DNA from: Nitrospira sp.
GTDB taxonomy: Bacteria; Nitrospirota; Nitrospiria; Nitrospirales; Nitrospiraceae
Assembly: GCA_024998685.1 (NCBI GenBank)
Contig: JACOEH010000002.1
Span: forward strand, 62,001-126,000
Reading direction: 5' to 3'
DNA: 64,000 nt
Both the position numbers and the translations under genes were made by a program. This document shows positions 58,092 through 59,165 of this stretch, one piece after another (the first letter of the stretch is position 1; each line of letters begins with the position of its first letter). Under the pieces are notes generated by a model. That model made no database searches, was not told the origin of the DNA, and was given only the letters and a program-made list of their open reading frames with translations.

Positions 58092-58347
58092 GGAACGGCT
58101 CAGGCAGCAGGGGCTCTTGCTCGACAAAGAACGGCGGGCGCGGCACGTCGCGGTGAATATGTACGGGCTGAAAGATCGCGTGCGCGCGCTCGTCGACAAA
58201 CACAAGTCGATCGACCTGCTCGATACCGAGGCGCTGAGCGTCGCCGTGAACGAACTGGCGACCGCCGACCGGGAATTCGAAACGCTCAAGACCGAGATCC
58301 ATCTGCTCCGCGAGGACCTCGGCCTGCCGCAGGAGGAGATCCGGTGA
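58081..58347 (+). CDS. Coiled-coil protein, DUF2730-like position
   Basis: An 88-residue helical protein (EERLRQQGLLLDKERRARHVAVNMYGLKDRVRALVDKHKSIDLLDTEALSVAVNELATADREFETLKTEIHLLREDLG). Mu-like phages carry a small coiled-coil gene here ahead of the gp27 homolog. Its stop overlaps the GTG of the methylase. Confidence 0.55.
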   Translation: MGSEERLRQQGLLLDKERRARHVAVNMYGLKDRVRALVDKHKSIDLLDTEALSVAVNELATADREFETLKTEIHLLREDLGLPQEEIR

Positions 58348-59165
58348 AGGGACTAGAACTTGCGCAGGCAGGCAGGCAGGCAGGCAGGCAGGCAGGCAGG
58401 TCATCCATGCTAACACTGGCACCCTGGAAGGGCGGCAAAGCCCGCATGGTCTCGCGGCTGCTGCCGCTGTTTCCTGTCCATATCTGCTACGTCGAGCCAT
58501 TCGGCGGCATGGCGTCATTACTCTTGAACAAACCCTCCAGCGAGGTCGAGGTCTACAACGATCGCGACGATCGGCTCCTCGAACTCTTCTCGGTCTTGAA
58601 ATATCACCCGCAGGAATTCGACCGCGAGTTGGATGGACTGCTCACCAGCAGACGCCTGTTCGAATTGTACCGCGACCGCACCGGCATCACCGACATTCAA
58701 CGATCTGCACAATTTTTGTACGCGCTTGCCTTCTCGTTCAGTGGCAAAGGGGAAAGCTTTGCGCCAGGAGCCATCAAAAATGCCGGCTCCATCCAGCAGC
58801 TGCGGGAACGTGCCGAGCTCGTCAAGCAGCGTCTGCAGCGAGTCACCATCGAGCACTTGGATTGGGAAGAGGTCATCGCCCGCTATGACGGACCAGACAC
58901 GTTCTTCTTCTGCGATCCGCCCTACATGGAGACGAGTGGCTACCGGATGCAGTTTGTCGATCGCGACCAAGAGGCGCTGGCCGCGAGGCTCAAGGCGATC
59001 AAAGGCAAGTTTCTCATGACGAACAGCGACGTGCCAGGCGTCCGGCACTTGTACCGAGGGTTTCAGACGATCGTGTTGCGCGGACAATTGTGCATCGAAC
59101 GATCGCACGCGCGGCAGCTCAAGCACTTGGTGGTCGCGAATTATCGACTGAAGGGAAGTCGGTAA
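58344..59165 (+). CDS. D12-class DNA adenine N6-methyltransferase with 5' CAGG repeats
   Basis: A 273-residue Dam-type enzyme. LAPWKGGKARMV and YVEPFGGMASLLL form the SAM site, YNDRDDRLLELF follows, and FFFCDPPYMETSGY is the catalytic DPPY motif. GTG 58344 has a strong AGGAGGA site; the first 21 residues are QAGRQAGRQAGR-like and come from nine CAGG repeats, then ATG 58407 starts the conserved domain. With nine repeats GTG is in frame. It probably marks phage DNA against host restriction. No cognate nuclease is seen. Confidence 0.9.
   Translation: MKGLELAQAGRQAGRQAGRSSMLTLAPWKGGKARMVSRLLPLFPVHICYVEPFGGMASLLLNKPSSEVEVYNDRDDRLLELFSVLKYHPQEFDRELDGLLTSRRLFELYRDRTGITDIQRSAQFLYALAFSFSGKGESFAPGAIKNAGSIQQLRERAELVKQRLQRVTIEHLDWEEVIARYDGPDTFFFCDPPYMETSGYRMQFVDRDQEALAARLKAIKGKFLMTNSDVPGVRHLYRGFQTIVLRGQLCIERSHARQLKHLVVANYRLKGSR
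58365..58400 (+). repeat. Nine tandem CAGG repeats at the methylase 5' end
   Basis: Exactly 36 bases, nine units, between the GTG start (58344) and an internal ATG (58407). Gain or loss of one unit shifts the frame; in one shifted frame TAA follows at 58411-58413. Confidence 0.9.

Follow-up and report, generated by a model that had tools for sequence, protein, structure and literature searches.

Phase-variable mod genes, which form phasevarions in Haemophilus, Neisseria and Moraxella, yield a full-length product at one repeat count modulo 3 (PMC2651432, PMC6902483). Like them, the gene described here encodes an N6-adenine methylase and has a simple-sequence repeat close to its 5′ end. The mod genes, however, are part of cellular Type III restriction-modification (R-M) systems and their switching is proven, whereas the present gene encodes an apparently solitary methylase of the D12 class, is located in a Mu-like prophage, and its switching is proposed. 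Membership in the Type III mod group was considered and rejected, as PF02086 is the sole domain match of the protein and there is no match to N6_N4_Mtase or TypeIII_RM_meth.

Among phage-borne enzymes, the PamA adenine methylase of a Staphylococcus aureus prophage reportedly alters host gene expression (PMC12435837). PamA is prophage-borne, as is the present enzyme, and solitary, as the present enzyme may be; its abstract mentions no repeat switch. The phrog_56 phage Dam-type methylases (e.g. those of Shewanella MuM16-1, Burkholderia KS9, Halomonas phiHAP-1 and Vibrio VP882) belong to the same family and display the same motifs and domain start; unlike in the gene described here, a tract is absent from all eight members that were aligned. 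The Mu mom/Com module is a further example of a DNA-modification gene in a Mu-like phage, and Hin1523, Nma1821 and Hia5 are methylases of Mu-like prophages. No Com was identified beside the present methylase. Identity with SuMu gene 53, which is found next to Com and is a possible Hia5 relative, was rejected, as there is no BLASTP relation and the profile match is weak. A search of the open-licence literature yielded no earlier report of a repeat-switched solitary methylase in a phage, which does not by itself prove absence. In bacterial R-M systems, switching of adenine methylases by repeats is well documented (PMC2651432, PMC6902483).

The locus is in a 64,000-nucleotide stretch of a Nitrospira sp. 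contig (termed the window). Exactly nine CAGG units are found at positions 58365–58400 of the forward strand, between a GTG at 58344 and an ATG at 58407, in exact agreement with the preliminary description of this DNA. We propose, with a probability of roughly 0.6, that this tract switches, by strand slippage, the translation of an apparently solitary adenine methylase with a Dam-like fold, which a Mu-like prophage carries.

The prophage begins at about 45.2 kb and continues past the end of the window, and GC content changes from 55% to 62% on entering it. Its genes are in the order: repressor-like start, MuA and MuB homologues, lysis genes, methylase, terminase and portal. The protease, head and tail genes are outside the window. 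All of the following are on the forward strand: a Mu A-type transposase (46308–48239, phrog_310, 1.8e-109), a Mu B-type DNA transposition protein (48240–49175, phrog_296, 2.2e-58), an endolysin with Glyco_hydro_108 and PG_binding_3 domains that belongs to a lysis module upstream of the methylase (56400–56936), a terminase small subunit or Mu Gp27-like protein (59202–59771), a terminase large subunit (59755–61296, phrog_38) and a portal protein with a Mu F-like C-terminus (61672–63774). With the MuA transposase, MuB and Mu-type head genes all present, the gene content is that of a Mu-like transposable phage, and the prophage is apparently intact.

The prophage also contains hairpin-forming repeats of AGAC-rich 9-mers (AGACGAGAC / AGACACGAC), at window positions 56966–57012 and 63104–63186 and, outside the window, at positions 133952–134702 of contig C97. 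In this genome they are confined to the prophage; one is inside the portal open reading frame, and one is just 5′ of a small open reading frame that follows the endolysin and has a strong Shine-Dalgarno sequence (SD). In addition, the sequence CTCGAG is strongly depleted in the prophage (3 observed vs 17 expected from 45.2 kb onward; 180 vs 349 in the host).

The methylase open reading frame (58344–59165, forward strand) has a length of 273 aa in its long form and of 252 aa when read from ATG 58407. By profile (PF02086, 1.7e-18; phrog_56, 4.5e-63), by motifs (EPFGG as motif I and the catalytic DPPY) and by a predicted Dam-like fold, it is a D12-class (Dam-type) N6-adenine DNA methyltransferase with a complete domain; this and the MuA and MuB homologues bear out its earlier designation as a prophage adenine methylase. 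It is present as a single copy in its genome and shows 35%–39% aa identity to annotated phage “Dam” proteins. The AlphaFold model (pLDDT 84.9) has as its closest solved structures E. coli Dam, the best PDB match, together with DpnM, Mcbe1 and T4 Dam. In the model the fold starts at about residue 28, and the repeat-coded residues 13–21 have a pLDDT below 50; the N-terminal tail is short and probably disordered.

The adjacent genes that were examined are lysis, terminase and portal genes, plus a weak HNH-like open reading frame at 61289–61681. Judged from these neighbours alone, the enzyme is a candidate solitary methylase. Most plausibly, a solitary adenine methylase of a Mu-like phage guards the phage DNA against restriction. 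With an observed/expected ratio of 1.17, GATC is not under-represented in the prophage, and GATC avoidance was therefore rejected as a clue to the specificity of the methylase. A second open reading frame, at 54310–54843 (177 aa), matches DNA methyltransferase PHROGs over its first 60–85 residues only. It has no obvious catalytic motif beyond the match and may be a second prophage methylase that has been truncated.

When translated in the GTG frame, the nine CAGG units give AGRQ repeats. The TRF program calls the tract as 58364–58400 (9.25 × GCAG), i.e. one base longer. This is the only run of five or more CAGG units in its genome (4.83 Mb). The next-longest tetranucleotide run in the 1.17 Mb of the genome that was sampled has 3.5 units, and the longest period-4 run over 100 shuffles of the window has 4.0 units. 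The (CAGG)9 tract is longer than chance would give. Among 396 genomes of the phylum, six have a CAGG tract of at least five units, with the present genome counted. The genome is a draft (105 contigs) and assembled tract counts can be consensus values, so the tract or its exact count might be wrong; but its 36 nt are shorter than the usual read length, it is inside a 188 kb contig, and its coding flanks are intact and in frame on both sides. An assembly artefact is accordingly very improbable.

Upstream of the tract, the GTG (58344–58346, forward strand) has an AGGAGG (58331–58336) at a distance of about 7 nt. The duplex energy of this SD is −10.3 kcal/mol (the 5% quantile of random positions in the window is −8.1 kcal/mol), which substantiates the strong ribosome-binding site noted previously. 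The GTG shares the bases GTGA with the TGA stop codon of an upstream open reading frame (58081–58347, forward strand; 88 aa, phrog_23145, unknown function), which translationally abuts it. Such packing, in which start and stop codons overlap by 4 nt behind a strong SD, is usual in phage operons, and the (CAGG)9 tract is therefore probably translated from the GTG. The GTG is 63 nt from ATG 58407 and in frame with it, and the GTG open reading frame has 273 codons and ends at 59165.

The in-frame ATG (58407–58409) opens the conserved methylase domain, as had been described: PF02086 is complete from here and the starts of homologues agree. The AGG of the final repeat unit (58398–58400), 6 nt before the ATG, is a possible SD for a short form. 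Its duplex energy of −7.2 kcal/mol is better than that of about 90% of random positions. The OFF state may therefore leak, and the previous view that only weak internal initiation would be left in that state is uncertain.

These features of the ATG also suit a neutral microsatellite, where ATG 58407 is the sole start and the tract is part of an untranslated or irrelevant leader whose length drifts. Most homologues begin at the position of this ATG or within a few residues of it, the SD-like AGG of the last unit is there at any number of units (n), and the repeat-coded tail is modelled with low confidence and does not belong to the fold. Because the ATG has a fair SD, coincides with most homologue starts and opens a complete domain, n may have little influence on expression; a fixed tract would be equally consistent with the in-frame state at n = 9. 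On the other hand, the SD of the GTG is stronger than that of the ATG and the GTG overlaps the upstream stop codon, which speaks against a neutral leader. With a genome nearly devoid of such tracts, expansion exactly at this site would also be a coincidence. We regard a neutral tract as the main rival to the switch, but as rather unlikely.

The reading frame of the methylase is set by the number of repeat units, as in phase-variable methylases with simple-sequence repeats. With 3n units the GTG frame reads on through the methylase and gives the long form. With 3n+2 units (8, 11) it stops at a TAA (58411–58413, forward strand), one base past ATG 58407. With 3n+1 units (7, 10) a wrong-frame open reading frame of 178–182 codons extends across the ATG to a TGA (58886–58888, forward strand). 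The frame analysis thus points to a three-state arrangement, finer than on/off. Only 3n units give full length, so that nine units do hold the GTG in frame, as first proposed. The earlier claim that gain or loss of a unit turns the long form off stands insofar as the frame is lost either way; however, 8 and 10 units end differently, at TAA 58411 and at 58888. Loss and gain of a unit should consequently differ in effect, as 8 units stop beside the ATG and 10 units read nonsense through it. Since TAA 58411 adjoins ATG 58407, reinitiation is plausible at 3n+2.

The proposed switch would operate as follows. Ribosomes arriving from the overlapping upstream open reading frame would start at GTG 58344 and cross (CAGG)n. 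With nine units, or any 3n, an active methylase with a repeat-coded N-terminal tail would be formed. After loss of one unit, ribosomes would halt at TAA 58411 and some may reinitiate at ATG 58407, with reduced or short-form expression; after gain of one unit they would read in the wrong frame across the ATG to 58888, and the gene would be off. Both lysogens and bursts would consequently contain phage that mark DNA alongside phage that do not. The benefit would most likely lie in antirestriction or self-marking that can be tuned, and host expression might be affected as well. That the locus slips, that the ON state methylates DNA, that reinitiation takes place and that any benefit follows are all inferred.

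The repeat number might, instead, act in a graded manner and adjust the rate of initiation at ATG 58407 through the reinitiation distance, the availability of an SD or the folding of the leader. There is an AGG in every unit, i.e. a reservoir of SD-like motifs; the predicted folding energy of the leader shifts steadily with n, from −59.0 for three units to −73.3 for twelve; and at n = 8 the closeness of TAA 58411 to the ATG favours coupled reinitiation. The tracts of related phage methylases argue against such a tuner: AACC and AAGCC tracts found at the same site have no SD-like motif, and frame dependence is the sole feature common to all tracts at this site. A graded tuner ranks third among the explanations and is improbable.

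The related phage methylases were scanned for repeats in about 160 viral loci (169 entries, 529 kb, with some duplicates). Tetra- and pentanucleotide tracts of at least five units are found only at the 5′ ends of the methylases. Three metagenomic loci (termed L120, L360 and L361) are of the same family and architecture as the present gene (SD-ATG, tract, domain), with different repeat units and with no SD before the domain. L120 (also entered as L359), whose methylase has 37% identity to that of the window, carries (AACC)14.5, which is out of frame as assembled, where 12 and 15 units would be in frame. L360 carries (AAGCC)11.4, in frame. In both, an SD-ATG precedes the tract and the domain start has no SD. 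L361 carries (ACCA)12.75; its sequence ends at the tract, and its domain start has neither an SD nor an ATG. Such unlike tracts at one site, in homologues without an SD at the domain start and in one case without an ATG, argue against a neutral leader.

That related phage methylases have different repeats at this same site makes a slipping switch probable here. The argument from this site has few cases, three of them interrelated: L120, L360 and L361 are akin to one another, with about 70% identity. Most homologous phage methylases have no tract at all. Two of them (L362 and L367) have none although they are 69% identical to L120, so that tracts evidently appear and disappear. The preliminary description had considered a tract-bearing phage methylase to be new in this phylum; beyond the phylum, the design recurs in these other phages. 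Genome and virus collections, together with 236 genomes of the order, were searched at the protein and DNA level and gave no close relatives of the methylase or of the terminase, and matches to named phages and plasmids are all below 60% identity. No second copy of the phage was found in the collections to which its unit count could be compared. Thus the earlier proposal of a phase-variation switch is upheld for the dependence of frame on unit number and for the parallel tracts at the same site, and stays a proposal for a change of number at the locus itself, for methylation and for effects on the host.

In a wider sense, contingency loci may have arisen independently on the solitary DNA methylases of several unrelated lineages of temperate phages. 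A phage population, and not its host alone, would thereby hedge the marking of its DNA and of the lysogen chromosome; here this would be by way of a single CAGG tract with three states (long, reinitiated short and off). This generalization is possible but somewhat doubtful. A phage with a switchable solitary methylase of its own could randomise the mark by which it counters restriction and, within lysogens, the methylome of the host. Recurrence with different units opens the idea to repeat counting in existing virome reads.

CAGG tracts were also found at other loci. In viral contigs, the count differs between matching flanks: 10 vs 11 units with identical 150-nt flanks (L304 and L325 vs L303), and 17 vs 22 units with flanks of 99%–100% identity (the L300 group vs L327). 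This indicates that CAGG number does change in phages, although the counts are those of assemblies. Three viral contigs retrieved solely by their CAGG tracts (L277, L292 and L347) have 7, 14 and 8 units, respectively, in or just 5′ of N6_N4 methylase open reading frames. In L292 a ParB_N open reading frame is directly upstream of the methylase open reading frame. Of the 70 open reading frames at viral CAGG tracts, four are DNA methylases, vs none seen among 80 distant open reading frames on the same contigs, for which 25 of 26 families are listed (Fisher one-sided p = 0.045). For GTDB genomes a methylase enrichment at CAGG tracts is suggestive only, since 25 of 113 control families are listed.

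In a genome of the same phylum (G255; locus L142, G255:C54), a (CAGG)15 tract at positions 1501–1560 splits an R-M gene with HSDR_N_2 and N6_Mtase domains, followed by Methylase_S. The tract is out of frame and the open reading frame has 508 aa; 14 or 17 units would produce one protein of 871–875 aa. The gene likely encodes a phase-variable R-M enzyme.

The CAGG tracts of related genomes were rejected as orthologous tracts, as their positions are unrelated. Such sites include one before an HU/IHF-like gene (G152), one in a GrpE-like open reading frame (G458) and one at a contig end (G071). The first of these, in a genome of the same genus (L143, positions 1501–1528), is a (CAGG)7 tract in a non-coding leader about 33 nt 5′ of the HU/IHF-like ATG. 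Several other loci (L332, L329, L187, L256 and L299) display several CAGG tracts with conserved spacers of about 48 nt between them, and such multi-tract loci are common to viral contigs and bacterial genome contigs.
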